DNA from: Byssovorax sp. | GTDB taxonomy: Bacteria > Myxococcota_A > Polyangia > Polyangiales > Polyangiaceae | DNA: 64,000 nucleotides | Assembly (NCBI GenBank): GCA_025362495.1 | Contig: JANYGI010000124.1 | Coordinates: 1-64,000 of the forward strand | Reading direction: 5' to 3' | In this document: positions 5,401 through 19,386 of the stretch, one piece after another | Layout: each line of letters opens with the position of its first letter | Numbering within the stretch: the first letter of the stretch is position 1 | Made by a program: the position numbers and the translations under genes | Notes under the pieces: model-generated | What the model was told of the DNA's origin: nothing | The model's input: the letters and a program-made list of their open reading frames with translations, nothing else | Databases searched by the model: none

Positions 5401-5831
5401 TCGTCACACGCCTCGTCGCTCGCCACGAGACCGTCGCCGCAGGTGCTCTTGCAGACGCTGGGCGAGCCGGCGCACGTGAAGCCGTGCTCGGGCTTGCAGC
5501 TCGCGTCGCAGCCGTCGCCGGCCTTGGTGTTGCCGTCGTCGCAGGCCTCGCCCGAGCCGACGTCGCCGTCGCCGCAGACCACGGGCATGCCGCCGGCCCC
5601 GGTGCTGCTGCTGCTGCTCGCGCTGCTGCTCGCGCCGCCGGTGCCTCCGCCCGCGCCGCCGGTGCTGCCGCTCGTGCTCGTCGTGCCGGGCTCGCCGCCC
5701 GTGCCGCCCGAGCTGCTGGTGTCGGAGATCTTGCTCCGATCGATGGTCGAGATCAGCTCGCACCCCAGCGTGCCGCCGGCGCCGACGCAGAAGATCAGGG
5801 CCGTCGCGATTTGCTTCGCCAACGCGGTCAT
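2421..5831 (-). CDS. DUF4215/PPC-repeat surface lipoprotein
   Basis: The 1136-residue product is predicted to be exported and lipid-anchored. The chosen ATG gives a lipoprotein signal ending in the lipobox TLGC (Cys 24), with GAAGGA about eight bases upstream. The longer open frame to 5966 lacks these. A Ser/Gly/Thr linker follows, then five tandem DUF4215 (myxococcus Cys-rich) repeats of the pattern CGDGxVxxxExCDDxN...GDGCxxxC. After that come five pre-peptidase C-terminal (PPC-like) beta-sandwich units, recognised by D-x-DYFKI-type strands. Short DUF4215-like CGD...CDGG/CDDGN pairs separate the first four units, and only the fourth and fifth abut directly. Such proteins are typical of myxobacterial surfaces and usually have no assigned function. 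No protease domain is visible, so a binding or structural role is inferred. The repeats are also visible at the DNA level. Confidence 0.9.
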   Translation of the reverse strand: MTALAKQIATALIFCVGAGGTLGCELISTIDRSKISDTSSSGGTGGEPGTTSTSGSTGGAGGGTGGASSSASSSSSTGAGGMPVVCGDGDVGSGEACDDGNTKAGDGCDASCKPEHGFTCAGSPSVCKSTCGDGLVASDEACDDKNIDDGDGCHSDCKIETGATCAGEASVCTPICGDGNVTLGEACDDHNTVAGDGCDGTCAIEAGAACAGMPSVCTPICGDGLVTLGEACDDHNTTPGDGCNATCKPEAGYTCTGAPSVCTTICGDGIKTGAEACDDGNSVDLDGCSSTCHVDSFTEAGSNDTVATANGPYTPSPGLIIHGTIQPGTDADVFAIVVPATADLHLETFDASGPSTCNNIDTQLTLIGTDGTTVIATDDDAGVNACSKIDSKGSPAVAHLPAGTYYVKVAAYNSFKPIPGYTLVVTFDALCGDAKKQGHEECDGGAACTATCDRVPTCGDGFVDAPEQCDDANAASGDGCSATCQYETQSETEPNDTAATASGPFKPNALLSGAITPGTDLDYFKITVPATADLKIQTFDATGPSSCAAIDTVVTLYGTDGTTTLVTRDQGGVNGCGAIDSTKAADSAARHLPAGTYFIKVEDFQNNTAIPGYTMLVTFNALCGDGVVSGSEECDGGAGCTATCDRVAVCGDGFVDAPESCDDGNTTAGDGCSATCAFETTAETEPNDTSATANGPFSPYALITAAITPGTDVDYFKVVLTATSDLDVETFDGTGPGSCSGVDTVVTLYAADGTTVVTSADDGGISTCSRIDPTVDPLARHLAAGTYFVKVEDFQNNTLIPAYMLQIKATAICGNGKVEGGEECDGGANCTATCDRIAVCGDGFIDAPETCDDGNTTAGDGCGATCLLETTAEVEPNNDLAGADASPVQITASTVITGAISPALDEDFFKMTLAQPTIVRLETFDPSGTDCSIQTTLAVYDSVGALLYTDDNSGISTCSAVVVSLPIGSYYVSVVERTNSLPIAGYLLQAKFEASAGFEVEPNDTRATATNFPGSDVVIGGNHALGTDSDYFKITVPAGKSLRAEIVEGNAETCESDDIDSFVTLFDSNGVALGGDDDSGRGFCSLIDGTGATPADAYAHNLAAGTYYLLVEAAPGAQSVGDTSGQFVYNLAITLR

Positions 5832-6113: not shown

Positions 6114-8324
6114 ATGACGGAACTCGCGCTCATCTTCGGCATCAGCGCCCTCGGGCTCTGCTTCGCCGGCTACCTCGCGCGGTGGGTGCTCGCGCAGCCC
6201 GCCGGCGAGGGCGACATGCCGCGCTACGCCGCGCTGATCCGCGGCGTCGCCGAGACGTTCCACCGCAAGCAGAGCAGCACGATCGCGGCGGTCTCGGCCG
6301 TGCTCGGCGGGGCGATCTTTCTCGCGTACGGCCTGCTCCGGCGCGTGGGCGAGGTCGATCCCGTCCCGGCCCTCGAGCTCGGCATGTGGCTCACCACGTC
6401 GTTCGCGCTCGGCGTCGCCAGCTCCGTCGCCGCGGGGCACGTCGCGCAGTGGATCTCCACCCGCACCAGCGTGCGCGCGGCCGCCGCGGTCCGTCGATCG
6501 GTCGATCACGCCCTCCAGGTCGCGATCCGCGGCGGCGCGGTCAGCGGCCTGTTCCTCTCGGCCACGAGCCTCGTCGGCATGGCTGGCCTCTTTGCCGCGG
6601 TGCTCGCCTACAAGGGCGGCTTCGGCGCCGAGCCCGCCGCGGCGCTCAAGCTCGCGCCCACGATCCCCTGGATGATCGCCGGCTACGCGCTCGGCGCCTC
6701 GTTCGCGGCGCTCCTCGCCCAGCTCGGCGGCGGCACCTTCGCCAAGGCCGCCGATCTCGGGGCCGATCTCGCGGGGCAGGAGAGCGGCGTCGGCGAGGAC
6801 CACCCCGAGAACCCCGCGACCATCGTCGATCTCGCGGGCGATCACGTGGGCGACTGCGCGGCGCGGGCCTCGGGCCTGTTCGAATCGACGGTCGCCGAGA
6901 ACCTGGGCGCCATGCTCGCCGGCTCGCTGCTTTACCGCCAGAACGGCTCGATCCACAGCGCCCTCTCGGTGATGCTCTTCCCCCTTGTCACGCGGGCCTT
7001 CGGCCTCGTCGCGGGGATGTTCGGCGTGATGGTCGTCCGCACCGACGATCGCGAGGTGCCCCTGGCCGCGTTCGCGCGCGGCCTCTACGTCACGGCCGTC
7101 CTCCACGCCGTCGGCGTCGCCGGGGCTGCAAAATGGCTCCTCGGCGTGCACTGGGTCAGCTTCCTCGGCTGCGCCGGCGTGGGCATCGCCTCGGGGATCG
7201 CCTTCTTTCATGCCGTTTCCTACTACAGCGACGCCGCGAGGCGCCCGGTGCGCGAGCTCGCTGAAGCCTCGCGCGCGGGCCCGACGTTCACGTTGTTGCA
7301 CGGCGTTGCCACGGGCCTCGAGAGCGCGGTCGCGCCCCTCGCGATCATCCTCGTCGCCACCTTCGCGGCGTACCGTCTCGGCGCTCGCACCGGCCTCGCC
7401 GAGGGCGGCCTCTTCGGCACCGCCGTCGCCACGATGGGCATGCTCGGCACCGCCTCGTACGTCCTCTCGATGGACGCGTTCGGCGCCATCGCCGACAACG
7501 CGGGCGGCCTCGTCGAGATGACGATCGCCCGGGATCGCCCCGACGTGCGCGGCCGGACCATGGTCCTCGACTCCGTCGGGAACACGCTCAAGGCCCTCAC
7601 GAAGGCCTACGGCAGCGGCTCGGCTGCGCTCGCCTCGCTGCTGCTCGTGGCCGCGTACACCGACGAGGCGCGGCGCCGCGCGGGGCTCTCGGGCAAGGGC
7701 GCCGCCGCGTCGTCGATCAACCTCGCGCTCGATCGACCGGAGGTTTACCTGGGCGCGCTCGCGGGGATCCTGCTCGTGTTCTGGGTGGCGTCGCGCGCGA
7801 TCCTCGCCGTCGCTCGGTCGGGGCGGCGCGTGCTCGACGAGGCCCGCCGTCAGCTCAAGGATCGGCCGGCCGGGTTCGTCCCGGACCACGAGGCCTGCGT
7901 CGAGATGGTGTCGCGCGTGGCCCTCCGCCACATGATCACGCCCGCCCTCGTCGCCGCTGGCACGCCGATCGCGGTAGGACTTGCCTTGCGCTTCGCGAGA
8001 TCGGAGGATAATCCTCTGGTTGCCGCTGATTCGGTCGCGGCCCTGATCATGGCCGGAACGGTGGCCGGCGTCCTCGGCTCTCTCCTGCTAGGCAACGCAG
8101 GCGCCGCCTGGGATAACGCCAAGAAGTACATCGCGACCGGCGCCCACGGCGGCCGACACCTCGTGGATGAGACCGGCGCTCGCGTGGACAACCCGACGTA
8201 CACCGCCGCCCTGGTGGGCGACACGTTCGGCGATCCGTTGAAGGACGCCGCCGGCCCCGCGATGCATGTCCTCGTCAAGATGCTGCCCGTAGTGACGATC
8301 GTGTTTTTGCCATTTTTCTTGTGA
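6114..8324 (+). CDS. hppA: membrane-bound H+-translocating pyrophosphatase
   Basis: This is an integral membrane pyrophosphatase of 736 residues that couples pyrophosphate hydrolysis to ion pumping. About 14-16 hydrophobic helices are visible. The signature DxxxD is kept in KAADLGADLAGQ (around residue 212-222), as are the three Asp of VDLAGDHVGDC (around 240-248), DAFGAIADNAGG, and the C-terminal AWDNAKKY and VGDTFGDPLKD motifs. Lys in GNTLKALTK (near 493) corresponds to the Lys that replaces Ala in K+-independent proton pumps, so a K+-independent H+-pump is predicted. The Lys normally following DVGADLVG is Gln here and the nearby Glu is Ser, which marks a divergent member. It is divergently transcribed from the DUF4215 lipoprotein across a 282-base gap. 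A hairpin follows the stop. Confidence 0.93.
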   Translation: MTELALIFGISALGLCFAGYLARWVLAQPAGEGDMPRYAALIRGVAETFHRKQSSTIAAVSAVLGGAIFLAYGLLRRVGEVDPVPALELGMWLTTSFALGVASSVAAGHVAQWISTRTSVRAAAAVRRSVDHALQVAIRGGAVSGLFLSATSLVGMAGLFAAVLAYKGGFGAEPAAALKLAPTIPWMIAGYALGASFAALLAQLGGGTFAKAADLGADLAGQESGVGEDHPENPATIVDLAGDHVGDCAARASGLFESTVAENLGAMLAGSLLYRQNGSIHSALSVMLFPLVTRAFGLVAGMFGVMVVRTDDREVPLAAFARGLYVTAVLHAVGVAGAAKWLLGVHWVSFLGCAGVGIASGIAFFHAVSYYSDAARRPVRELAEASRAGPTFTLLHGVATGLESAVAPLAIILVATFAAYRLGARTGLAEGGLFGTAVATMGMLGTASYVLSMDAFGAIADNAGGLVEMTIARDRPDVRGRTMVLDSVGNTLKALTKAYGSGSAALASLLLVAAYTDEARRRAGLSGKGAAASSINLALDRPEVYLGALAGILLVFWVASRAILAVARSGRRVLDEARRQLKDRPAGFVPDHEACVEMVSRVALRHMITPALVAAGTPIAVGLALRFARSEDNPLVAADSVAALIMAGTVAGVLGSLLLGNAGAAWDNAKKYIATGAHGGRHLVDETGARVDNPTYTAALVGDTFGDPLKDAAGPAMHVLVKMLPVVTIVFLPFFL

Positions 8325-8331
8325 TCGGCCT

Positions 8332-8357
8332 CGGCCCGCCAGGTTCCTGGCTAGCCG
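8332..8357 (+). terminator. hairpin after hppA
   Basis: CGGC-CC-GCCAGG, loop TT, CCTGGC-TA-GCCG forms a nested stem directly after the hppA stop. There is no T-tract. It separates hppA from the helicase gene that starts about 110 bases later, so it may attenuate or terminate. Confidence 0.35.
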
Positions 8358-8467
8358 AGCTCGCTCCCTCCGCGCTTCACCCGACGAACCCTTTCGTCCC
8401 CCGAAAATCCCGCGCCTCTGCCGTTTCCGTCCGGCGCACGGGGTTCCCACGAAGACAACCGAGGCCT

Positions 8468-11400
8468 GTGCCCCCGATCTCCGACGCCTTGTCCACCCTG
8501 AGCGACCGCGGCCTCCGCCGGCTGCTCGGCGCTCGAACGTTCCTCCGCGGCCTGGAGTACTTCCGCCGTCGCGTCGTCGAGGACATCACCATCAACGAGA
8601 TGACGGCCAGCGGCACGGTCCGCGCGTCCGACTCGGAGCCGTACCCGGTGCTGGTCGAGCTCACCCCCGACGGGATCAAATCGCAGTGCAACTGCCCCGC
8701 GTACGCCAAGGGCGGGCAGCACTGCAAGCACGTCGCGGCCCTGCTCATCAGCGTGCGCGATCAGGCCCGCGGCACGCAGCCGCGCCGTGATCCGCCGCCG
8801 ATGCCGATGCCCGCGCTCCTGCCGCAGACGGCCCACGCGGGCGGGGGAGGGGACACGCCGAGCAAGCGGCTGAGGCGCCGCGATCGGCGCGGCCGCGTGC
8901 AGCCGGCGTCGACGATGGGCAACGGGGGAGGGCCGCCCAGCGCGCCGCACTCGCAGTCCTCGTCGCAGCCGTCCGAGCTCCGCGAGTCGCGCGTGGCGAC
9001 GGCCACGTTCACGGCGGCGCCCGCGCAGGATGCCACGGCGCGCCAGACCGGCATCGGCGCCTGGCTCCCGCCCGAGGGCAAGAGCGGCGGCCGCCGCGTC
9101 GAGTTCCGCCTGCACGTCCGGCAGGGCGGGCTCACGATCACGGTCCTCGACACCGAGCAGCGCGTCCCCGTCCTCCCGTCGCAAGCGCTCGCCTGGCAGA
9201 CGCTCTACCCGACGCCCGATCGCGACGCGCTCCGCCTGCTCGCCCGCTTCGAGAGCGGCAACCCGCGCCACCCCGCCGTCGACATCCGCGGCGAAGACGT
9301 GGCCGATCTGCTCCCGCTCCTCGAAGGCCAGCGCGTCCTCCTCGAGCCGGCGCTGATGCAGCTCCGCTTCGGCGACGAGCCGCTCAAGCCGCGCTTCGAT
9401 CTCGAGCTCGTCGGCGGCGACACCATCATCGTCAAGGCCAGCTTCGAGCGCGCGGGCGACAAGCGGCGCTTCTCGCTGCTCCAGGGCGGCTGGTTCGAGG
9501 GCTGGCCCTCGTGGCAAATCGACACGCAAGAGGGCATCGCGCGCCGGATCGACAAGCGCGTTTCCCCCGCGGCGATGCGGCGTTTGTTGCGATCGCCCAC
9601 CATCGGCGAGCCGATGCGCGAGCTGCCGCGGATCATCATGCAGGGCCTGCCGAAGATCGCCCTCGAGGTCGGCGCCGAGCTCCCCGAGCTCAGCCAGGTG
9701 GCCGACGTCGTCGACCTGTTACCGACGTTCCGCATGCGCGCCGGCGGCTCGCTCATCGACGCCCAGGTGCAGCTCTTCGCGGCCTACGGCGACGAAGAGA
9801 TCGAGGTCCGCGCCGACGGGATCTCGCTCCCGGTGATCATCCAGCCGCCGGAAGAAGGGATGAAGCGCGCCCGCTGCATCCGCGTCGACATCGCCGCGCA
9901 GCAGCAGGCCGCGGCCAAGCTCAACGCGCTCGGCCTCAAGCCCGACGAGACGGGCGAGTCGTTCGTCGCCAGCGGCGACGCCGCGATCCGCTTCTGGAGC
10001 GAGGGCCTGGCCGAGCTCCCCGACGACTGGGATCTCTTCGTCCCGGAAGACCTCGTCGATACCCAGGTCCGCCACAAGCCGATCGGCGTCTTCGCCAAGG
10101 TCACGAGCGGGATGGACTGGCTCAACGTCAAGCTCACCTACGAGAGCGAGGGCATCGCCGTCGATCGCGACGAGCTCCGCCGCTGCATCGCCCAGGGCAA
10201 GAAGTACGTGCGCCTCGAAGACGGCTCGTTCGCGGCCTTCGATCCCGATCAGGTCAAGGCGATGATGGAGCGCGAGGTCGAGATCCTCACGGCCGCCGGC
10301 AAGTCGGGCAAGCTCGCGCTGGCCCACGCCGGACGCGTCCAGGAGCTGCTCCAGCAGGCGCAGGGATCGAGCGTCACCGCCAGCGCGCGCGAGCTCTTCC
10401 AGAAGCTCGGCGGCATCGAGGAGATCGAGGCCACGAAGAAGCCTCGCAACCTCAAGGCGACGCTGCGGCCCTACCAGGAGGCCGGCCTCTCGTGGCTGAA
10501 GTTCATCCACGACATCGGCTCGGGCGGCGTCCTCGCCGACGACATGGGCCTCGGCAAGACGGTCCAGACCATCGCGCTCCTCCTCGCCGTGAAGCAGGAA
10601 GAGAAGCACCTGCGCACGCTGATCGTGGCGCCCACCAGCGTCGTCACCAACTGGGAGCGCGAGCTGGCCCGCTTCGCGCCGACGCTCTCCGTGGCCCTGT
10701 GGCACGGCGCGGATCGCAAGGAGCAATCCGAGGCCGTGAAGGAGGCCGAGGTCGTGATCACCAGCTACGCGCTGCTCCGTCGCGACGAAGAGTTCCTCTC
10801 CAAGCTCGACCTCACCTACGCGATCCTCGACGAGGCGCAGCACATCAAGAACCCGATGAGCGCCACCGCCGCTGCGGCGAAACGCCTTCATTCCAAGCGT
10901 CGATTGGCCCTCACCGGCACGCCGATCGAGAATCGGCTCTCCGAGATCTGGTCGATCTTCGACTTCGTCTCGCCGGGGCTCCTCGGCCCGCTCGATCGCT
11001 TCGAGCAGAAGTACAGCCGCCCGATCGAGGCCGGCGACTACAAGACGGCGCAGCGCCTCCGCTCGACGATCCACCCGTTCATCCTGCGGCGCACGAAGAG
11101 CGAGGTCGCCAAGGATCTCCCCGAGAAGATCGAGACGGATCAGATCTGCGATCTCACGGGCGAGCAGCGCAACGTCTACATGGCCGTCGCGAAAGAGGTC
11201 CGCGCCCAGGTCCTCGGCGAGGTCGAGCGCGTCGGCCTGGCGAAGAGCCAGATCCAGATCCTCGCGGGCCTCACGCGGCTGCGCCAGGCGGCCTGCGACC
11301 CGCGCTTGCTCGGCCTCCCGCGCGACTACAGCGACGAGGACTCGGGCAAGCTGGTGGCCCTGCGCGAGCTGATCTCCAACGCGGTGGAGGGCGGCCACAA

Positions 11401-11854
11401 GGTGCTCGTCTTCAGCCAGTTCGTGATGATGCTCAAGATCATCGAGAAGGCCATGAAGGAAGACTCGGTGCCCTACGAGTACCTCGACGGCTCCACGAAG
11501 GACCGCCAGGAGCGCGTCGACAACTTCCAGAACAACCCCTCGGTCCCGGTCTTCCTGATCAGCCTCAAGGCGGGCGGCACGGGCCTCAACCTCACGGCGG
11601 CGGATACCGTGATCCACTTCGATCCGTGGTGGAACCCGGCCGTCGAGCAGCAGGCCACCGACCGCGCCCACCGCATCGGCCAGACCAAGGTCGTCAACGC
11701 CTACCGCCTCGTCGCGGCCGGCACGATCGAGGAGAAGATCCTCCTGCTCAAGGCCAAGAAGCGCGAGCTGGTGGCGTCGGTCCTGAGCGAGGACGCGGGC
11801 GGCGCGAAGAAGCTCACCAAGACCGATCTGGAAGAGCTGTTCGCCGTCGACTGA
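8468..11854 (+). CDS. SWIM zinc-finger SNF2-family helicase
   Basis: The 1128-residue product is an ATP-dependent DNA translocase of the bacterial SNF2 (HepA/RapA-like) superfamily 2 type. An N-terminal SWIM zinc finger (CNCPAYAKGGQHCKH, near residues 75-90) is followed by a low-complexity Pro/Arg/Ser linker. A bacterial SNF2-associated middle region comes next. The helicase core has ADDMGLGKT (near 690), DEAQHIKNP (near 788), the motif III region ALTGTPIENR, and motifs V-VI SLKAGGTGLNL and QQATDRAHRIGQ (near 1060). It should act on DNA or nucleoprotein in the cytoplasm; the remodelled substrate is unknown. The GTG start has GAGG three bases upstream and precedes a conserved-looking helix. 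The frame is open back to 8321, so a longer start is possible. Confidence 0.9.
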   Translation: MPPISDALSTLSDRGLRRLLGARTFLRGLEYFRRRVVEDITINEMTASGTVRASDSEPYPVLVELTPDGIKSQCNCPAYAKGGQHCKHVAALLISVRDQARGTQPRRDPPPMPMPALLPQTAHAGGGGDTPSKRLRRRDRRGRVQPASTMGNGGGPPSAPHSQSSSQPSELRESRVATATFTAAPAQDATARQTGIGAWLPPEGKSGGRRVEFRLHVRQGGLTITVLDTEQRVPVLPSQALAWQTLYPTPDRDALRLLARFESGNPRHPAVDIRGEDVADLLPLLEGQRVLLEPALMQLRFGDEPLKPRFDLELVGGDTIIVKASFERAGDKRRFSLLQGGWFEGWPSWQIDTQEGIARRIDKRVSPAAMRRLLRSPTIGEPMRELPRIIMQGLPKIALEVGAELPELSQVADVVDLLPTFRMRAGGSLIDAQVQLFAAYGDEEIEVRADGISLPVIIQPPEEGMKRARCIRVDIAAQQQAAAKLNALGLKPDETGESFVASGDAAIRFWSEGLAELPDDWDLFVPEDLVDTQVRHKPIGVFAKVTSGMDWLNVKLTYESEGIAVDRDELRRCIAQGKKYVRLEDGSFAAFDPDQVKAMMEREVEILTAAGKSGKLALAHAGRVQELLQQAQGSSVTASARELFQKLGGIEEIEATKKPRNLKATLRPYQEAGLSWLKFIHDIGSGGVLADDMGLGKTVQTIALLLAVKQEEKHLRTLIVAPTSVVTNWERELARFAPTLSVALWHGADRKEQSEAVKEAEVVITSYALLRRDEEFLSKLDLTYAILDEAQHIKNPMSATAAAAKRLHSKRRLALTGTPIENRLSEIWSIFDFVSPGLLGPLDRFEQKYSRPIEAGDYKTAQRLRSTIHPFILRRTKSEVAKDLPEKIETDQICDLTGEQRNVYMAVAKEVRAQVLGEVERVGLAKSQIQILAGLTRLRQAACDPRLLGLPRDYSDEDSGKLVALRELISNAVEGGHKVLVFSQFVMMLKIIEKAMKEDSVPYEYLDGSTKDRQERVDNFQNNPSVPVFLISLKAGGTGLNLTAADTVIHFDPWWNPAVEQQATDRAHRIGQTKVVNAYRLVAAGTIEEKILLLKAKKRELVASVLSEDAGGAKKLTKTDLEELFAVD

Positions 11855-11873
11855 GCCTCCAGGTCTGATGTGA

Positions 11874-12005
11874 GGCGGGCCTCCGTGCCCGCCCCATGGA
11901 GTCTCTCGAGCGACCACACTCTCATCCGGATCCGCTCTGCCTGAACCTATTTCAGAAGGCGCACGCGGCTCGAGCTGGTCCATGTGGCGGGCACGGAGGC
12001 CCGCC
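11874..12005. repeat. paired REP-like palindromes
   Basis: GGCGGGCCTCCGTGCCCGCC at 11874-11893 and its exact reverse complement at 11986-12005 lie 92 bases apart. Each copy is itself a hairpin with a 7-base-pair GGCGGGC/GCCCGCC stem. Inverted pairing of palindromic units between convergent genes is the architecture of BIME/REP elements. Confidence 0.65.
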
Positions 12006-12050
12006 CCACACCGGAAGGCATTCCTGCTCAGGATCACTCGGAACGCAAAA

Positions 12051-12100
12051 GCAAGAAAGCCCCCCGGGCCGCGAGGCCAAGGGGGCTTCTTTTTGCCTTT
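12051..12100. terminator. bidirectional intrinsic terminator
   Basis: A GC-rich stem (AAGCCCCCC... paired with ...GGGGGCTT) is flanked by an A-run on the left and CTTTTT on the right. It therefore ends in a U-tract whichever strand is transcribed. It lies between the convergent helicase gene and the TolR-type gene ending at 12110. This is the best Rho-independent terminator in the window. Confidence 0.85.
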
Positions 12101-12109
12101 AAATCAAGG

Positions 12110-12760
12110 CTATTTTTTGTTCTTACCGCTGATCACCATCAGGTGATACTTGCCGAACTCGCTCTGGCCGAGCGTGAACAGCACCTCGATCAGCAGGCGG
12201 TACGGCGTCGTCGTGTCGGCGACGATGATCGCCTCCGACGTCGAAGGATCCTGCCCCTTGGCGGCGCGGATCGCCTTGTCCGTCTCGCGCGCGTGCTGCA
12301 GCGAGTTGGCGAGCGGCACGATGTACATGTCGTTCGGGCCGCTGCGCTTGTACTTGGCGTCGACGCCCGACTGCGCGAGCTGCTCCCGCGAGGGCAGCAG
12401 CACGACGGGGTTGGGATCGTCGCCGACGAGGATCTGCGACTTCGAGATCACGACGACGACGCCCTCTTGCGCCGCCTCGGTGCGCATCACCGAGGCCGGG
12501 AGCGAGAGGTCCTTCGACTGCGGCGTCGAGGCCGACGACGCCGCCACGGTCTTCAGCATGAAGACCAGGATGATCGTCATCAGATCGAGCATCGCGGTGA
12601 TGTTCAAGAAGTCGATCTCCGGCTCCTTGAAGTTGCGGCGCTTGGCCTTGCGCAGCGCCGCCTTGAAGCGGACGATGCTGCCGCTCTTCGCCGCGGGCGG
12701 CGGAGGACGGTTCGAGGCCGGGCCCGGCGTACCCGAGGGCGGACGCACCGAGCCGCTCAT
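12110..12760 (-). CDS. ExbD/TolR-type biopolymer transport subunit
   Basis: The 216-residue protein has a basic, Pro-rich cytoplasmic N-terminus and then a single membrane helix containing the proton-carrying Asp of the ExbD/TolR family (NITAMLDLMTIILVFML). A periplasmic domain follows. In this family a TolR dimer sits in a TolQ pentamer and turns proton flow into periplasmic work. It is the last gene of a three-gene minus-strand unit; its ATG overlaps the stop of the preceding ExbD-type gene by four bases (ATGA), which implies coupled translation. The bidirectional terminator lies immediately downstream. No TonB, TolA or TolB gene is nearby, so it should not be called a true Tol or Ton protein. 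Confidence 0.88.
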   Translation of the reverse strand: MSGSVRPPSGTPGPASNRPPPPAAKSGSIVRFKAALRKAKRRNFKEPEIDFLNITAMLDLMTIILVFMLKTVAASSASTPQSKDLSLPASVMRTEAAQEGVVVVISKSQILVGDDPNPVVLLPSREQLAQSGVDAKYKRSGPNDMYIVPLANSLQHARETDKAIRAAKGQDPSTSEAIIVADTTTPYRLLIEVLFTLGQSEFGKYHLMVISGKNKK

Positions 12761-13320
12761 CGCGCCGCTCCGAAGTGGACTTCGGGGAAGAGCTCTTCCT
12801 CGTTGTCGTTGCGGAGCGAGTCCATCACGTCGATCACCGTCTTGTACTCGACGCCGGGGTTCGCCGTGATCGTCACCTGGGTCTCCTCTTTGAACGCGCT
12901 GTTCGCGTTCTTGAGGCGCTTCGCGCACGCCGTCAGGCTCTTGAAGTCGTAGTCGTCGCCGACCTTCGGCACCGTGATGCCGCTGCCGACGTCGTTGCAG
13001 CCCGTCGCGATGTTGCCGCTCGAGGTCTTCAGCGTGATGCCCTGCGTGACGATGAAGCACGCCAGGTTCAGCGACTTCGTCGATGGATCGACGCGCACCT
13101 TGCCGCCGCCGATGGCGGGCGGCGTGGTGTCGATCGACGCGACGAACGACACCGATATGCTCGCCAGCACGAACATCATGATGTTCGTGATGATGTCGAG
13201 GTACGGGATGATGTTGAGCTCACCCGCCTCGTCGCCAGGCGCCGGCTCGTGCGGCTGCGAGAGCCGTCGAATCCGGGAGCGCTGGGCGGCGCTGAGCGGG
13301 GCGTCTGTGGGGTCGGCCAT
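12757..13320 (-). CDS. ExbD/TolR-type biopolymer transport subunit
   Basis: The 187-residue product has a short cytoplasmic tail, the signature ELNIIPYLDIITNIMMFVL with the conserved membrane Asp, and a periplasmic domain. That domain carries three Cys (ACFIVTQ, ATGCNDV, TACAKR) in an insert before the usual TolR fold. The Cys residues could form a disulfide in the periplasm. It is the middle gene of the minus-strand unit. It lies 17 bases downstream of the MotA/TolQ-type gene and overlaps the next TolR-type gene by four bases. Having two different TolR-type partners for one TolQ-type subunit is the arrangement of AglR-AglQ-AglS in Myxococcus gliding. The assignment to such a motor is inference from this arrangement. 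Confidence 0.88.
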   Translation of the reverse strand: MADPTDAPLSAAQRSRIRRLSQPHEPAPGDEAGELNIIPYLDIITNIMMFVLASISVSFVASIDTTPPAIGGGKVRVDPSTKSLNLACFIVTQGITLKTSSGNIATGCNDVGSGITVPKVGDDYDFKSLTACAKRLKNANSAFKEETQVTITANPGVEYKTVIDVMDSLRNDNEEELFPEVHFGAAR

Positions 13321-13337
13321 GGGGGGCGCCGATCGGG

Positions 13338-14018
13338 CTAGTAGCCCGTCTTCCCGCTGACGGTGAGCAGGTTGAACACGCGCTCGGTCGTCGACTCGAG
13401 ATCGTGCTGGATGTTCTTCGACCGCGTGTGAAGAAACACGTGCGCGATCATGCAGACGACGGCGATGCTGAGGCCGAACGCCGTGTTGTACATGGCCTCG
13501 GCGATGCCGTTCGACAGCATGCGCTGCTTGTCGGACGCCGAGAGGCCCTGCGCCGCGATCGACGCGAAGGTCCGGATCAGACCGGCGACGGTGCCGATGA
13601 GGCCGATGAGCGTCGCGATGTTCGCGAGCGACCACAGCGTGGCGATCCGCTTCTCCACCGCGGGCTTGAGCTCGGACAGCTTCTCCGAAAGCGCGGCGTC
13701 GATCTCGTCGGCGCCCTTGTTGGCGTGCGTGAGGCCCGCCTTCACGAGCTGCAAGATCGGGTAGTCGCTCGCGTCGCACAGCTTGATCGCCCGGTCGATG
13801 TTACCGGCCGCGACGAGCTTCTTGATCTGGGCGAAGAACTCTTTCGAGTTCACCCGGTAGCGCCCGAGCTGGAAGGCCGCCCTCTCGACGATGATCGTCA
13901 GCACGATCGCGGAGACGACCAGGTTGAACATGAGGAACGTGGGATTGTCCTTGATGGCGGCAAGCGCCCCGCCCTCGGTCCCACCACCCTCGGCCGCCAA
14001 CATCAGCAGATGACGCAT
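13338..14018 (-). CDS. MotA/TolQ/ExbB proton channel subunit
   Basis: The 226-residue protein carries the MotA/TolQ/ExbB domain. There is a first helix near residues 24-45, a large cytoplasmic loop, and two further helices with ATLIGLIGTVAGLIRTF and the polar-residue helix NTAFGLSIAVVCMI that lines the proton path. A stator-forming pentamer around a TolR-type dimer is expected in the inner membrane. The start MRHLLM is preferred over the longer open frame: it directly precedes the acidic leader and has AAGGGA some ten bases upstream. It heads the minus-strand unit and is divergent from a second, similar set at 14889. The 870-base gap between the two sets presumably holds both promoters. Confidence 0.9.
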   Translation of the reverse strand: MRHLLMLAAEGGGTEGGALAAIKDNPTFLMFNLVVSAIVLTIIVERAAFQLGRYRVNSKEFFAQIKKLVAAGNIDRAIKLCDASDYPILQLVKAGLTHANKGADEIDAALSEKLSELKPAVEKRIATLWSLANIATLIGLIGTVAGLIRTFASIAAQGLSASDKQRMLSNGIAEAMYNTAFGLSIAVVCMIAHVFLHTRSKNIQHDLESTTERVFNLLTVSGKTGY

Positions 14019-14888
14019 CCTCGAAGTCCCTTTCTCTGCGTCGCCAAGTCGATACGCTCTCACGTTCTTGCGACGAACAAAACGCGACTTTTCGCGCCTC
14101 GCGGCGACTATAGCCGCCGCTTCTCCGTGGACGCAAGCTTCCCCGAACGGTCGACCCTTCGTGAGGTGCGCTTTCTTGACGGATGAGGGGGAGCCGACCC
14201 TCGCGCACCCTCGCTCACCCCGCGCTTCGACGGGGCTCCGGCTCACCGGAGCAGCGAGGCGGCGCCGCGACCGCACGGAAAAAGAAGAGCGCGACGCGAC
14301 ACGCCGCCGCGGTCGGGCCGCGCTTCGCCGACCGAGTGCGTTCTCAGCGTAAGGTTTTGCTCGTACGCTAACGAGATCGCAGGCCAAATCTTGCTTGACG
14401 TGCGCGGGTCCGACTCGCGAAGATGCGCGGCTGCCGACGCTTGAACCCACGCTTCCCACGTTCCTCGAGGTGGCCGAGAGGTGCGCAGGACGAATCGGGG
14501 TCTCGAGTGTCGGCGACGATATCGATCTCGGTGGCGCGACGACGAACGAAGCGTCCACCGATTTCGACGATGGAGACGACGACGAACGCTTGCAGATCGG
14601 AGCACCGGTCGGCTAGCGTCCCACCCGCGTCAGCGCGGGCTCCACAATCTCTCGACACGTTGGATCCCGCGCGGATGACGGCAGGAGCAAAAAGAGACTG
14701 TGAAGGCGGAATGCGGATCAAAGATGCAATCGAAGCTCGATTTTCGAGGAACCGAACGCGTGATCCGATGGTCCGAGCGCACTCTCCGGAGCTCGAACAA
14801 GGTTTCTCGGTTTTGAGGCCACACATCATCGAACGGTGACGCGCGGCCTCTCAACGGAGGGCGCTCGGCGAATTGGAGGACAACGAAG
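14019..14888. other. long divergent intergenic region between two TolQ/TolR sets
   Basis: I recognise no gene in these 870 bases. Base composition is less GC-biased than the flanking genes, especially 14640-14830. Two perfect hairpins are visible: GCTCCGG-CTCA-CCGGAGC at 14235-14252, and CGGTCGG/CCGACCG at 14310-14334 with an 11-base loop. A short acidic open frame at 14395-14616 (TTG start) has poor codon bias and is not called. Divergent promoters must lie here, but I cannot place them confidently. Confidence 0.6.
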
Positions 14889-15548
14889 ATGCACGGAGCA
14901 TACGCACATTTTGTAGAGGGTGGATGGGGCATGTGGCCTATCCTTTTCTGGTCGATCGTGACCATCGGCATCATTGTTGAGCGCGCCCTCTTCCTGTTCG
15001 GCTCGTCGATCAACAAGGATGTCTTCCTCGCCACGATGCAGAAATGCATCCTCGCGGGCGACGTCGGCAAGGCCGTGAAGATGTGCTCGGCGGCGAACGC
15101 GCCCCTCGCGCGCATCGTCCAGGCGGGTCTCGTCAAGGTGAATCGCCCCGACGAAGAGGTTCAGGCCGCCATGGACGAGGCCGCGCTTCGCGAGCTCCCC
15201 AAGGTCAGCGCCCGCACCGCATACCTGGCGCTCCTCGCCAACCTGGCGATGCTCTCGGGCCTCCTCGGGACCGTGACGGGCCTCATCAAGTCGTTCGGCG
15301 CCGTCGCCGGCGGCTCGATCGATCCCAGCCAGAAGGCGACCATCCTCGCCAACGGCATCTCGGAGGCCATGAACTGCACCGCGTTCGGTCTCGGCGTCGC
15401 CATCGTCGGCCTCATCGGCTTCGCCATTCTCAATGGCAAGACGCAGGGCATCGAGGACGACATCAACGAGGCGTCCGTGCAGATCCTGAACCTCGTCGTC
15501 GCGAATCGCCAGAAGGTGAACGTCGCGGCGGTGAACCAGGCCGCGTAA
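14889..15548 (+). CDS. MotA/TolQ/ExbB proton channel subunit
   Basis: The 219-residue protein has the MotA/TolQ/ExbB architecture. The first helix (WPILFWSIVTIGIIVERALF) is near residues 14-35. LAMLSGLLGTVTGLIKSFGAV and CTAFGLGVAIVGLIGFAIL form the pore helices. GGAGG lies nine bases before the ATG, a strong ribosome site. It is the first gene of a plus-strand unit with two ExbD/TolR-type genes and a membrane-anchored protein. It resembles the minus-strand TolQ-type protein (13338-14018) in layout but differs in sequence, so the two sets are paralogous modules, not a recent duplication. Confidence 0.9.
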   Translation: MHGAYAHFVEGGWGMWPILFWSIVTIGIIVERALFLFGSSINKDVFLATMQKCILAGDVGKAVKMCSAANAPLARIVQAGLVKVNRPDEEVQAAMDEAALRELPKVSARTAYLALLANLAMLSGLLGTVTGLIKSFGAVAGGSIDPSQKATILANGISEAMNCTAFGLGVAIVGLIGFAILNGKTQGIEDDINEASVQILNLVVANRQKVNVAAVNQAA

Positions 15549-15568
15549 GCACCGAGGTTCGTTCGATT

Positions 15569-15593
15569 GGTGGGCACCCTCGGGTCGCCCACC
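15569..15593 (+). promoter_or_regulatory. intercistronic hairpin
   Basis: GGTGGGC-ACCC, loop TC, GGGT-C-GCCCACC makes an 11-base-pair stem with one bulged base. It lies 20 bases after the TolQ-type stop in a 178-base spacer. There is no U-tract, so it is more likely an mRNA-stability or attenuation element than a full terminator. Such a hairpin could raise the ratio of channel subunit to TolR-type subunits. Confidence 0.45.
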
Positions 15594-15726
15594 TCCTCCA
15601 GGGTCCGTGGGGGAGCGCGGCGTCGCAAGGTGCAGCGCTCCCCGCCTCGGAGGCCCGCACAGCAGTTTCGAGTAGCACGCACGGCGTCCGTTTCGTGGAC
15701 GCCCCCAGATTGAGCGGAGGTTCCCC

Positions 15727-16293
15727 GTGGGTGGTGTAGACGTCGATACCGGTGGCAAGAAGCGGTCGACCAACAGCGAAATCAACATGGTCCCGTTCAT
15801 CGACCTGTTGTTCGTCACGGTGGCGTTCCTCCTGATCACCGCGGTGTGGGTCACGAACTCGCGCATCAACGCGGACGCGCAGGTCCCCGGCCCGCCGGAC
15901 CCGAACAAAGAGCTGACTCCGCAGACTCCCGAGAAGGTTCTGAACCTTCACATCGGCGAGAACGATTTCGGCCTCGTGTGGAAGCAGGGCGCGACGGTCG
16001 TGAGCGAAGTGAAGGTCCCGAAGACGCCTGTCGAGCTCGGCGACGGCTCGACGAAGGTCCTCCGCTACCCGGACCTCGCGAAGAAGATCGAAGAGGAGTG
16101 GAAGGCCCAGGGCGGCCACCGCGACGCGAGCGACAAGAAGCTCGATCAGTGCATCCTCTACAGTGATAACCGGACCCAGTTCAAAGAGCTGGTGGCCGTC
16201 CTCGATGCGCTCTACTCCCCGAAGCGGGAGATGATCCTCGGCAAAGAGACGAAGAAGATCCCGGTCTTCAACATGACGTTTTCCGTGCGTTGA
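15727..16293 (+). CDS. ExbD/TolR-type biopolymer transport subunit
   Basis: The 188-residue protein begins at a GTG with GGAGG about seven bases upstream. The family signature is EINMVPFIDLLFVTVAFLLI near residues 18-37, with the conserved Asp in the membrane helix. A periplasmic domain follows with one Cys (DQCILYSDN). It pairs with the TolQ-type channel encoded 178 bases upstream and with a second TolR-type protein downstream. A function in proton-driven envelope or motility work is expected from the family. The precise process is unknown because no TolA, TonB or Pal gene adjoins. Confidence 0.88.
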   Translation: MGGVDVDTGGKKRSTNSEINMVPFIDLLFVTVAFLLITAVWVTNSRINADAQVPGPPDPNKELTPQTPEKVLNLHIGENDFGLVWKQGATVVSEVKVPKTPVELGDGSTKVLRYPDLAKKIEEEWKAQGGHRDASDKKLDQCILYSDNRTQFKELVAVLDALYSPKREMILGKETKKIPVFNMTFSVR

Positions 16294-16300
16294 GTTTCGA

Positions 16301-16344
16301 TGGGGCCGCAAGCGGCCCCAGGTCGATGGGCCGCTAGCGGCCCA
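16301..16344. repeat. tandem GGGCCGC-type hairpins
   Basis: TGGGGCCGC-AA-GCGGCCCCA (16301-16320) and TGGGCCGC-TA-GCGGCCCA (16327-16344) are perfect palindromic hairpins side by side in the spacer between two ExbD-type genes. A third member of the same family occurs at 41419-41440. They may modulate transcription or mRNA stability within this operon. Confidence 0.6.
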
Positions 16345-16385
16345 AACCCTCGGACTTTGCTAGGACTCTCGGAGCAAGACCCACG

Positions 16386-16988
16386 ATGGATAGGTACAAC
16401 CCCAAAGCCCACCACAACCCGCACGCCCACGTCATTCACGCGCCCGGCGCGCGCCTGATGCACGGCGTGAAGCTCCGGTACGTGTGGAACAAGGTGCAGG
16501 GGCACGGCCACCGAAGCCCGAACGCCAGCCTCAACTTGGTGAGCTTCATCGACTTCCTCTCGGTCATCGTGATCTTCCTCCTGATGTCGTTCTCGGCGTC
16601 GGGCGAGATCGCGGTCGACAAGAACGTCACCCTGCCCAAGGCCGAGAACGTGGAGGCGATCATCGACGCCCCCATGGTGGCCGTGAACGGCAACCAGATC
16701 CTCGTCGACGGCGTGCAGGCCGGGTCGACCCGCTCGATCGAAGAGCTCGGTCGCCTCCAGAAGATCGACGAGCTCTTCGCGCTGTTGAAGAACAAGCGCG
16801 AGCTCTGGAAGCAAGTCCAGCCGAACAAGCCGTTCCCCGGCGTCTGCATCTTGCAGGTCGATCAGAACGTGTCCGCGCTCGTGGTGAAGTCGGTCTTCCA
16901 GACGGCGGCGTTCGCGGGTTACCCGAACGTCAGCTTCATGGTCGGCAAGATCCCCTCGACGTCCGGCGCCGCCCCGGCGGCGGAGTAG
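16386..16988 (+). CDS. ExbD/TolR-type biopolymer transport subunit
   Basis: The 200-residue protein has an unusually long His-rich cytoplasmic N-terminus (six His within the first 30 residues). The TolR-type helix LNLVSFIDFLSVIVIFLLM follows near residues 50-68, with its conserved Asp, and then a periplasmic domain ending in an Ala/Pro tail. It is the second TolR-type partner of the plus-strand set. The His-rich segment could bind metal, but no known family motif supports that. Two perfect hairpins lie in the spacer upstream. Confidence 0.86.
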   Translation: MDRYNPKAHHNPHAHVIHAPGARLMHGVKLRYVWNKVQGHGHRSPNASLNLVSFIDFLSVIVIFLLMSFSASGEIAVDKNVTLPKAENVEAIIDAPMVAVNGNQILVDGVQAGSTRSIEELGRLQKIDELFALLKNKRELWKQVQPNKPFPGVCILQVDQNVSALVVKSVFQTAAFAGYPNVSFMVGKIPSTSGAAPAAE

Positions 16989-17030
16989 CTCTCCCTCCCT
17001 TCTCACCTTCAGTCCTTTCCCGAGCACCCC

Positions 17031-18077
17031 ATGTCGTCCTCCGAGGAGCAAGAGCCGCGGAAGCGGGGGCTGCCCGCCGTCCACGCCGCGCGCGACGCTC
17101 GCGCCGCCGGCAAGGCGCGTTACCCGTCCGTGAAGTTCTGGGGCTACAGCGGCCTCATCCTCGCGGTGGGCGCCATTCTCAACTGGAAATGGTCGAACAA
17201 CGAGGTCGAGAGCGCGCGCCAGGCGCTGATGGCGCGGCAGCGCGCGACGACCATCGAGCTCGGACCGCGGTGGTTCCCGGTGCGCGACAAGATCGAGCAC
17301 TGGACCACCGAGCTGGCGGGTGAGCCGGGCGCCGAGATCATCGATCGCGACGCGCTGAAGAGCTGGGATTTCCGCGACAAGGCCGGCATCTATCTCCGGC
17401 TCCGCGTGCAGGACGCGAAGACGCCCGAGTCGATCCGCGCGGGCGCGAAGGACTCGCTCCGGGACGCGTTCACCTCGTGCCTGATGCACACCGCGAACCC
17501 CAACCCCACGGCCGGCGCCGAGTGCAAGCGCACGCGCGACTGCCCCTCGGGTGAGTTCTGCAACGAGCAGGATCACTGCTCGAAGCTCGCGCAGCCGTTC
17601 AACCTCCGCGAGGGCTACCGCGCGATGCGCGACCTCACCGACGACTGGATCCACGAGGTCCAGGACGCGAGCACCGATCTCCGGCTCCGCGCGCTCGTGG
17701 GTGGCTTCGACGACGCGGTCCGCGACGACATCCCGCGCGTGGTCGAGGTGCTGCAGCGCGCTCAGTACCTGCTCGTCGTGCTCGACGAGGACGTGCCGGG
17801 CATGGCGCTCCCGGGGGCCGACGCCGGCCCCTCCGCAGCGGCCGAGGCCATCCAGGCCGCCGCGCACCTCGCGCGCGTCGGCGTGTGGCGCCTGAGCGAC
17901 GGGAAGCAGGTCCTCCGGCTCCGCCGCGAGGCCGGCGGGCAGCTCCTCGGCGCCACGCCGTCGGTCGACGCCGAGGTCCTCGCCTCGCGGGCCCGCCAGG
18001 CCAACAGCTGCGCCCTCGCCCTCGAGGTCCGCAACGCCATGGGCGACACCAGCGCCGGCTCGGTCCCCGGGCAATAG
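17031..18077 (+). CDS. membrane-anchored periplasmic protein of unknown function
   Basis: I do not recognise the family of this 348-residue protein. A charged N-terminus of about 38 residues is followed by one membrane helix (FWGYSGLILAVGAILNW). The rest is predicted to be periplasmic. Near residue 165 a Cys cluster, CKRTRDCPSGEFCNEQDHC, could form two disulfides. An amphipathic C-terminal half follows. It lies 42 bases after the second ExbD-type gene and is very likely co-transcribed. It is a candidate output component for the TolQ/TolR-type motor, comparable in position to the periplasm-spanning partners in Tol or Ton systems. That role is inference from location and topology only. Confidence 0.75.
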   Translation: MSSSEEQEPRKRGLPAVHAARDARAAGKARYPSVKFWGYSGLILAVGAILNWKWSNNEVESARQALMARQRATTIELGPRWFPVRDKIEHWTTELAGEPGAEIIDRDALKSWDFRDKAGIYLRLRVQDAKTPESIRAGAKDSLRDAFTSCLMHTANPNPTAGAECKRTRDCPSGEFCNEQDHCSKLAQPFNLREGYRAMRDLTDDWIHEVQDASTDLRLRALVGGFDDAVRDDIPRVVEVLQRAQYLLVVLDEDVPGMALPGADAGPSAAAEAIQAAAHLARVGVWRLSDGKQVLRLRREAGGQLLGATPSVDAEVLASRARQANSCALALEVRNAMGDTSAGSVPGQ

Positions 18078-18093
18078 TTGCAGCAGCAACGAG

Positions 18094-18113
18094 ATCGTTG
18101 GAGCTCCAACGAT
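18094..18113. repeat. 20-base perfect palindrome between convergent genes
   Basis: ATCGTTGGAGCTCCAACGAT is a perfect palindrome in the 49-base gap between two convergent stops. Nearly the same sequence, with one central change, recurs at 50470-50489 inside a coding region. Here it can fold into a hairpin for both transcripts and may act as a bidirectional terminator. Confidence 0.55.
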
Positions 18114-18126
18114 TTCGTCGGGGTCG

Positions 18127-19386
18127 CTAGCGCGCGCGGCAGAGGACGTGGAGATCGGCCAGGTTGTGGCCGGTCGGCCCCCCGGCGAGGTGCGAGCCTA
18201 GCGCCCGGTGGATCCGCGCGTCGTCGAACGCCGCGAGCGCATGATCGATCGCCTCGTCGCCGGCCACCGCCGCCATCCCGCGGGTGACGCCGGCGCCGCC
18301 CGCGCCCGAGCTGCCGTCGACGCCGTCGGAGGCCGCGCAGAGCAGCGCCACGTCGTCGGGCAGGCGACGCATCGCCGCGAGCGCGACCCAGCCCGCGCGG
18401 CCGCCGCTGCCGCGCTGCTCGGGCAGCCGCAGCGTCGGCTCGCAGGCGATCACCACCGCCTCGCCCGGCGCGAGCGCGGCGGCGCGCGCGATCCGCCGAT
18501 CGACGATCGTCGCGGCGTCGCCCTCGTCGGGACCTTCCACCGTCGCCCGGAAGCCCGCGAGCTCGAGCCGCTCGCGCATCGCTGCGGCGAGGCTCCCGGG
18601 ATCCACGAGGATCCGCGCGCGGAGCCGCACCGCCGCGGGCACCGAGGTCGCCGCCTCGAGGATCGTCACCGGCGTGTCGGGCTTGAGCGACTCGTCGAGG
18701 AACGCCGCGTCCGCGAGCTCGGGCGCGTGCCGGCGCAGTACCGCGCGCGCGTCGTCGATCGTCGTCGGATCGGGCACCGTCGGGCCGGAGCCGACGTCGT
18801 GCGCCTCGCCGCCGATCACGTCGCTGAAGATCAGCGTGAGCACGCGCGCCGGGATCGCCGCGCGCGCCAGGCGCCCGCCCTTCACGCGCGAGAGGTGACG
18901 ACGCACCAGGTTGACCTCGCGGATCGGCGCGCCGCGATCGAGGAGCGTGGCCACGATCGCCTGCTTTTCCGGGAGCGAGAGCCCCGCCGCGGGGGACGCG
19001 AGCAGCGCCGACGCGCCGCCGGAGATCAGCGCCACGAGCAGATCGCCCGCGCCGAGATCGTTCGCGAGAGCGAGCGCCGCCTCGGCGGCCTCGAGGCTGC
19101 GCTCATCGGGGATCGGGTGCGACGCCGCGAGGGCGCGGACGCGAGGATCGGTGAACGTCGCGATCGGATCCGGCCCGACGACCAGCACGCGATCGATGCG
19201 ATCGGGCCACCGCGTCAGCGCGCCTCGCGCCATCGCCGCGGCCGCCTTGCCCGCCGCGATGATCACCACGCGCGCGCGCCGCGGGGGCAGGGGAGGGAGC
19301 GCGTCGTGCACCAGGCGCGCGGGATCGAGCGACGCGAGGCTCGCGCGGAAGATCCTCGCCAGCGTATCGACGAGCGCGGCGCTCAT
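18127..19386 (-). CDS. glycerate 2-kinase (GckA/MOFRL family)
   Basis: The 419-residue protein matches the DUF4147/MOFRL type of glycerate kinase, which phosphorylates D-glycerate to 2-phosphoglycerate with ATP. Family features are the N-terminal VIIAAGKAAAAMARGAL segment, the glycine-rich LVALISGGASALLASPAAGL (near residue 110-135) and LIFSDVIGGEAHDVGSGPTVPDP (near 195-215). The C-terminal MOFRL part has LLCAASDGVDGSSGAGGAG. It should be cytosolic. The ATG overlaps the stop of the upstream secreted-protein gene by four bases, making it the last gene of an HD phosphohydrolase-secreted protein-kinase unit. No glycerate or serine-cycle genes adjoin, so its pathway here is open. Confidence 0.88.
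   Translation of the reverse strand: MSAALVDTLARIFRASLASLDPARLVHDALPPLPPRRARVVIIAAGKAAAAMARGALTRWPDRIDRVLVVGPDPIATFTDPRVRALAASHPIPDERSLEAAEAALALANDLGAGDLLVALISGGASALLASPAAGLSLPEKQAIVATLLDRGAPIREVNLVRRHLSRVKGGRLARAAIPARVLTLIFSDVIGGEAHDVGSGPTVPDPTTIDDARAVLRRHAPELADAAFLDESLKPDTPVTILEAATSVPAAVRLRARILVDPGSLAAAMRERLELAGFRATVEGPDEGDAATIVDRRIARAAALAPGEAVVIACEPTLRLPEQRGSGGRAGWVALAAMRRLPDDVALLCAASDGVDGSSGAGGAGVTRGMAAVAGDEAIDHALAAFDDARIHRALGSHLAGGPTGHNLADLHVLCRAR

Follow-up and report, generated by a model that had tools for sequence, protein, structure and literature searches.

Does the back-to-back pair of TolQ/TolR-like modules in the soil myxobacterium Byssovorax sp. make up one machine or two, and what would each module drive? 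A sequence-only reading of the window (the whole 64,000-nucleotide stretch of DNA analyzed) had described two divergent modules of one Q and two R proteins each, separated by an 870-base intergenic region and unaccompanied by TolA, TolB, TonB or Pal. This description held throughout: each module comprises a Q gene (TolQ/ExbB-type) followed by two differing ExbD/TolR-type genes (R1 and R2), in the order Q-R1-R2 on its own strand, the six genes forming two divergent operons. Pfam agrees, with MotA_ExbB matching the Q proteins (3.8e-25 for Q-minus and 8.8e-24 for Q-plus) and ExbD the four R proteins (5e-8 to 2e-12), all above the curated cut-offs. The spacer is exactly 870 bases, from the Q-minus start at 14018 to the Q-plus start at 14889, and no TolA, TolB, TonB or Pal was found in the 30 of about 47 window genes scanned. 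A fourth plus-strand gene, X, lying within the range covered by that reading, had been left out. The features of the locus are:

12058–12110, both strands: terminator-like hairpins separating the minus operon from the SNF2 helicase gene
12110–12760, minus strand: R2-minus, 216 aa, ExbD/TolR-type, TM Asp59; Pfam ExbD 9.8e-11; M2-R2 clade 100/100
12757–13320, minus strand: R1-minus, 187 aa, ExbD/TolR-type, TM Asp42; Pfam ExbD 5.3e-8; M2-R1 clade 99/95; overlaps R2-minus by 4 bases
13338–14018, minus strand: Q-minus, 226 aa, TolQ/ExbB-type channel protein of the M2 lineage; Pfam MotA_ExbB 3.8e-25; tree 100/99
14019–14888, no strand: divergent spacer, 870 bases, with little kept beyond the promoter-like elements and start regions
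14107–14136, minus strand: putative promoter-like element of the minus operon, TTGCGT - 18 nt - TATAGT
14394–14424, plus strand: putative promoter-like element of the plus operon, CTTGAC - 19 nt - GAAGAT
14610–14621, plus strand: second conserved block upstream of the plus operon, CGGCTAGCGTCC; core in 7/12 spacers
14889–15548, plus strand: Q-plus, 219 aa, AglR orthologue; Pfam MotA_ExbB 8.8e-24; AglR clade 97/93
15727–16293, plus strand: R1-plus, 188 aa, GTG start, AglQ orthologue, TM Asp26; Pfam ExbD 2.1e-12; AglQ clade 99/99
16386–16988, plus strand: R2-plus, 200 aa, AglS orthologue, TM Asp56; Pfam ExbD 6.9e-11; AglS clade 98/96
17031–18077, plus strand: X, 348 aa, last gene of the plus operon

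A proton-pumping pyrophosphatase and an SNF2 helicase (8321-11854) neighbor the minus operon, and genes for a glycerate-kinase-type protein and an HD-domain protein lie on the side of the plus operon. The membrane H+-pyrophosphatase (window 6114-8324, plus strand) is also found near the motor pair in several relatives, and in Anaeromyxobacter terrae one lies directly 3′ of the AglRQS genes, a proton pump adjoining proton motors (further copies at L206:7114-9552 and L219:4425-6563). Farther out, window 2421-5831 (minus strand) encodes a protein of 1136 aa in which DUF4215 occurs in seven stretches and PPC domains three times; it is probably a large secreted or surface protein.

The descent of the two modules was traced in trees with reference loci from a scan of named genomes (Pyxidicoccus fallax, Anaeromyxobacter terrae, Sorangium cellulosum and Polyangium), in which Pyxidicoccus and a further genome, G185, stand for the Myxococcaceae in place of the M. 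xanthus proteins. Q-plus is placed in the AglR clade at 97/93; Q-minus joins the second Q of the Myxococcaceae (100/99), and the genome's own Tol/Exb paralogues lie outside (100/99). The R proteins resolve into four clades, namely plus-R1/AglQ (99/99), plus-R2/AglS (98/96), minus-R1 (99/95) and minus-R2 (100/100); the R2 subunits of both motors together form a single clade (99/97), and the two-R composition therefore predates the split of the motors. AglR-type Q genes are nearly all followed by two R genes, and those of the Tol/Exb types by one, except at three TonB-type loci. The Pyxidicoccus fallax triad (245/157/194 aa) is close in length to M. xanthus AglR (245), AglQ (162) and AglS (194) (PMC3169522 Table 1). 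On this phylogeny, the plus module is the subunit-by-subunit orthologue of AglRQS (M1), with Q corresponding to AglR, R1 to AglQ and R2 to AglS. In M. xanthus, AglRQS powers both the Agl-Glt machine for gliding and the Agl-Nfs machine for the spore coat. The plus module has the same composition and gene order, keeps the membrane Asp and pore Thr residues and has a GltG-type FHA partner in the genome; it differs in that its operon ends in the fourth gene, X, it lies head to head with an M2-type module and the Glt cluster is elsewhere in the genome.

The minus module subunits, in contrast, fall outside the AglR, AglQ and AglS clades and inside those of M2 (Q 100/99, R1 99/95, R2 100/100). Only a single additional close Agl-like Q is present in Pyxidicoccus and likewise in G185, and their minus-type triad adjoins topA. 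Since M. xanthus also has a single further Agl-like set besides AglRQS, MXAN_3003-5 (PMC3169522, PMC3858216), we infer by exclusion that the Myxococcaceae minus-type set is M2. The minus module groups with this only other close Agl-like set of the family, but the Myxococcaceae version stands alone beside topA and has Lys in place of the Q pore Glu that the minus module retains. The sequence-only reading had likened the composition of both modules to AglRQS: for the plus module the likeness is one of true orthology, whereas the minus module belongs to a separate old lineage. Because of that separate lineage, its choice between two related machines and one heteromeric machine shifts in favor of two distinct ones, with heteromerism more likely inside each module (R1 with R2) than in a single heteromeric machine. 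A further AglR-type group, linked to G4-type F, G and H genes (L204, L207, L213 and L222), falls in the remainder of the Q tree outside both main clades. At L086:9853-11178 and L087:9199-10521, two different Q genes stand in tandem ahead of a single R1-R2 pair and may make hetero-pentamers. The record for G185 (L220), titled Comamonas sp. KCTC 72670, contains a Myxococcaceae-type glt cluster and AglRQS, and its label looks wrong.

The head-to-head layout is a feature of the order. When 59 relatives were searched with Q-plus, 55 had close homologues, and a divergent minus-Q lies within 3 kb at 49 of these 55 plus-Q loci among Polyangiales (gap 442-1270, median 776); at least four of the six unpaired loci are near contig ends or on short contigs, and one, that of G003, lies on a long contig from which the minus Q is missing. 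The complete six-gene layout is present in all 20 Polyangiales loci examined in full, which, together with the 49 of 55, argues against chance. The flanks of the paired loci vary, except for the nearest ones. Outside Polyangiales each motor type is found singly, and in Myxococcaceae the two are unlinked. Recent local duplication is accordingly rejected as the source of the pair, and both motors are older than their pairing. A plasmid search returned only distant homologues, and we found no description of the paired-motor arrangement in the literature searched.

The two modules had also been thought to share one control region. They do share one spacer, but a separate conserved promoter-like element points toward each operon: the ACTATA core of the minus element recurs in 11, and the plus element, at a fixed spacing, in 10 of the 12 spacers compared, several of which come from close relatives. 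The minus element is absent from the listing of a consensus promoter scan. Two conserved elements facing outward make it probable that each operon has its own promoter. No Rfam match to a structured RNA was found over 11850-18200.

Gene X is kept in Polyangiales as the fourth gene of the plus operon; at the three Myxococcia loci inspected, no X was found downstream of AglS. An AlphaFold model of good confidence (pLDDT 87, pTM 0.79) predicts a membrane-anchored periplasmic protein, with one N-terminal TM in a 63-residue helix followed by an alpha/beta domain. X has no match among Pfam and PDB sequences and no Foldseek match with E below 0.001; its best VIA-align Z is 5.6, to Cj1090c, PelC and similar small periplasmic domains, with TolB and CsgG around 4. 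Because these structural matches are weak, we draw no function from the fold; that X is a coupling subunit is a guess.

Pore threonines and membrane aspartates are conserved in both modules (in the plus module, R1 Asp26, R2 Asp56 and Q Thr128 and Thr164), and these predicted ion-path residues fit a proton motor of the 5:2 class (PMC9389320). The membrane Asp of R2 is present in 152 of 152 triads. That of R1 is replaced by Asn, Ser or Cys in 37 of the 152, all of which have also lost the Q pore Glu and have an intact R2 Asp; these are mainly motors inside transducer clusters (e.g., L093, L151, L217, L174, L204). Both Byssovorax modules retain R1 Asp, R2 Asp and Q Glu. The covariation of R1 Asp and Q Glu comes down to about four changes once relatedness is allowed for, too few events for significance in an independent-pairs test, and is hence suggestive only. 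A homodimer of such Asp-less R1 would lack any site for the proton, and R1 is accordingly presumed to partner R2, which favors one R1:R2 heterodimer per motor rather than mixing of the modules. The literature leaves open whether AglQ dimerizes with AglS or each with itself (PMC9389320). Two orphan R1-type genes occur in the same genome, G000:C65 (L109:8006-8575) and G000:C213 (L110:~8889-9416), one being a close paralogue of the plus R1 and the other belonging to the minus R1 type. The membrane Asp is intact in each, and they are possible spare axle subunits.

Potential partners were sought by comparison with four clusters from G185 (G1, G3, G4 and G5), of which G1 matches the published Glt proteins in length and G3-G5 are labels that we assigned by content. 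In the Byssovorax genome, C129 carries a G1-like (Glt-type) cluster and C79 a G5-like one. C129 contains GltC/D/E/G/I-like genes (GltG 32% over its length, 1e-54; GltI 8.6e-161), and its FHA protein is similar to GltG over the full length, i.e., a GltG-type transducer is present in the genome. A short OPX (polysaccharide-export) protein that combines Poly_export and SLBB domains is encoded in both C79 and G5. In the D-protein tree, C79 groups with G5 and in-cluster homologues (98) and C129 with G1/G3/G4 (100); branches are long in this tree, as they are in that of the E proteins. At G000:C24:81452-85006 lies another GltD-like gene (57% to that of C129), and the genome may therefore hold two Glt/Nfs-type complexes beside C79.

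Outside the paired loci, at least two Glt-core genes adjoin 12 of 25 motors of the M2 lineage (clade II), all of them G5-type, although a slow rate of change in G5 may account for part of these best matches; no D, E or F gene was found beside AglR-clade motors in 46 loci. Among the 59 relatives, 56 have a C129-type D and 53 a C79-type E. G003 retains the plus motor and a C129-type D, and both its minus Q and its C79-type E are missing; this co-loss is a single event, and G012 and G033 are exceptions with a minus Q and no C79-type E match. From the frequent residence of M2-lineage motors in G5-type clusters, the D-protein trees, the counts in relatives and the G003 co-loss, we infer C79 as the complex driven by the minus module and C129 as that driven by the plus module. 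In M. xanthus, deleting MXAN_3004 leaves motility and sporulation unaffected, and neither GltG nor NfsG is bound by MXAN_3003 (PMC3169522, PMC3858216); M2 is dispensable for both processes, and the functions of M2 and G5 are given as unknown (PMC3169522). These results fit a different partner without pointing to G5 itself. The Group B core complexes of Bradymonadia, Alteromonadales and others (Glt C-D-E-F with motor and G) have a related motor and transducer genes of the same family as C79 and C129, but their motor is embedded in the transducer cluster and their R1 usually has Asn for Asp.

The co-assembly of subunits from both modules, making the divergent operons a single six-component motor, could draw on the strict pairing in Polyangiales, the homology of all the subunits and the orphan R1 genes of both types. 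Yet each module is complete and occurs without the other in Myxococcaceae, Anaeromyxobacter, G132 and G003, R1 and R2 of each stay in their own clades and the promoter-like elements are separate, which makes such mixing quite improbable. A less improbable, but still unlikely, alternative is a single Glt gliding machine in Polyangiales driven by both motors, which would act as its two gears or regulatory states, the M2-G5 link having been lost there. Pairing kept across the order while all but the nearest flanks vary would suit such sharing; however, the retention of the C79-type E in 53 of the 59 relatives means that a candidate partner for M2 persists, and the sole clean loss of the minus Q goes with the loss of that E.

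Energizers of the Tol-Pal or ExbBD-TonB type belong to the same superfamilies, but the NCBIfam equivalog cut-offs for TolQ, ExbB, TolR and ExbD are missed by a wide margin (TolQ 62 of 221 bits, ExbB 38 of 206), and the characteristic partner genes are not found alongside. The phylogenetic comparison that the sequence-only reading had suggested finds no orthology to Tol or Ton, with the Tol/Exb paralogues of this very genome outside at 100/99. Cut-offs and trees thus contradict this membership, to which we give very little credence. The same genome does have an ExbB-ExbD-ExbD-TonB set (C146, L103:7730-10361) that also combines one Q with two R, but it has TonB and a receptor alongside and groups with the Exb/Tol outgroup. 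We find equally hard to credit a Zorya-like anti-phage system built from the proton motor and the neighboring SNF2 helicase: the helicase matches the ZorD model (5e-84, 283 bits) and lies near the pair in 9 of 22 pair loci, but this falls short of the 1500 bits set as the cut-off for ZorD, other models for helicases give better scores, most loci have the modules without the helicase and no R subunit has the OmpA/MotB domain (Pfam) of ZorB. Zorya membership is rejected on the absence of that domain and the sub-threshold ZorD score.

Computation establishes which genes are present and their orthology, the pairing and its conservation, C129 and C79 as parts of the genome, the ties of M2-lineage motors to G5-type clusters and the conserved ion-path residues. 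From these we propose, as a fairly probable reading, two separate motors at this locus, both proton-driven and in the inner membrane, each with five Q subunits around one R1:R2 heterodimer (a predicted 5:1:1). The plus operon would be M1 with X as an order-specific extra subunit, and would most likely drive the Glt-type envelope complex at C129 in gliding and/or surface polymer transport. The minus operon would be the M2 orthologue, most likely driving the G5-type complex at C79, and, since that complex includes the short OPX protein, its output is probably surface polysaccharide handling. The two motors would have come from separate loci and been brought head to head in Polyangiales with their separate promoters kept.

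The locus thus presents known kinds of motor in a conserved arrangement and provides a testable assignment for M2, an orphan motor since 2011: with its relatives, it brings both the M2/G5 function and the dimer question within reach of experiment. Natural R1 subunits that lack the proton Asp argue for heterodimers, and genomic context ties M2 to G5 and its polysaccharide-export protein. We tentatively generalize, with rather less assurance than for the locus itself, that AglRQS-type motors may be obligate R1:R2 heterodimers in which only the R2 Asp is universal, that M2 may be the engine of a G5 machine handling exported surface polysaccharide and that Polyangiales may keep both engines as one divergent locus. 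The conserved head-to-head paralogous motors offer a compact system for how related motors stay separate in one membrane.
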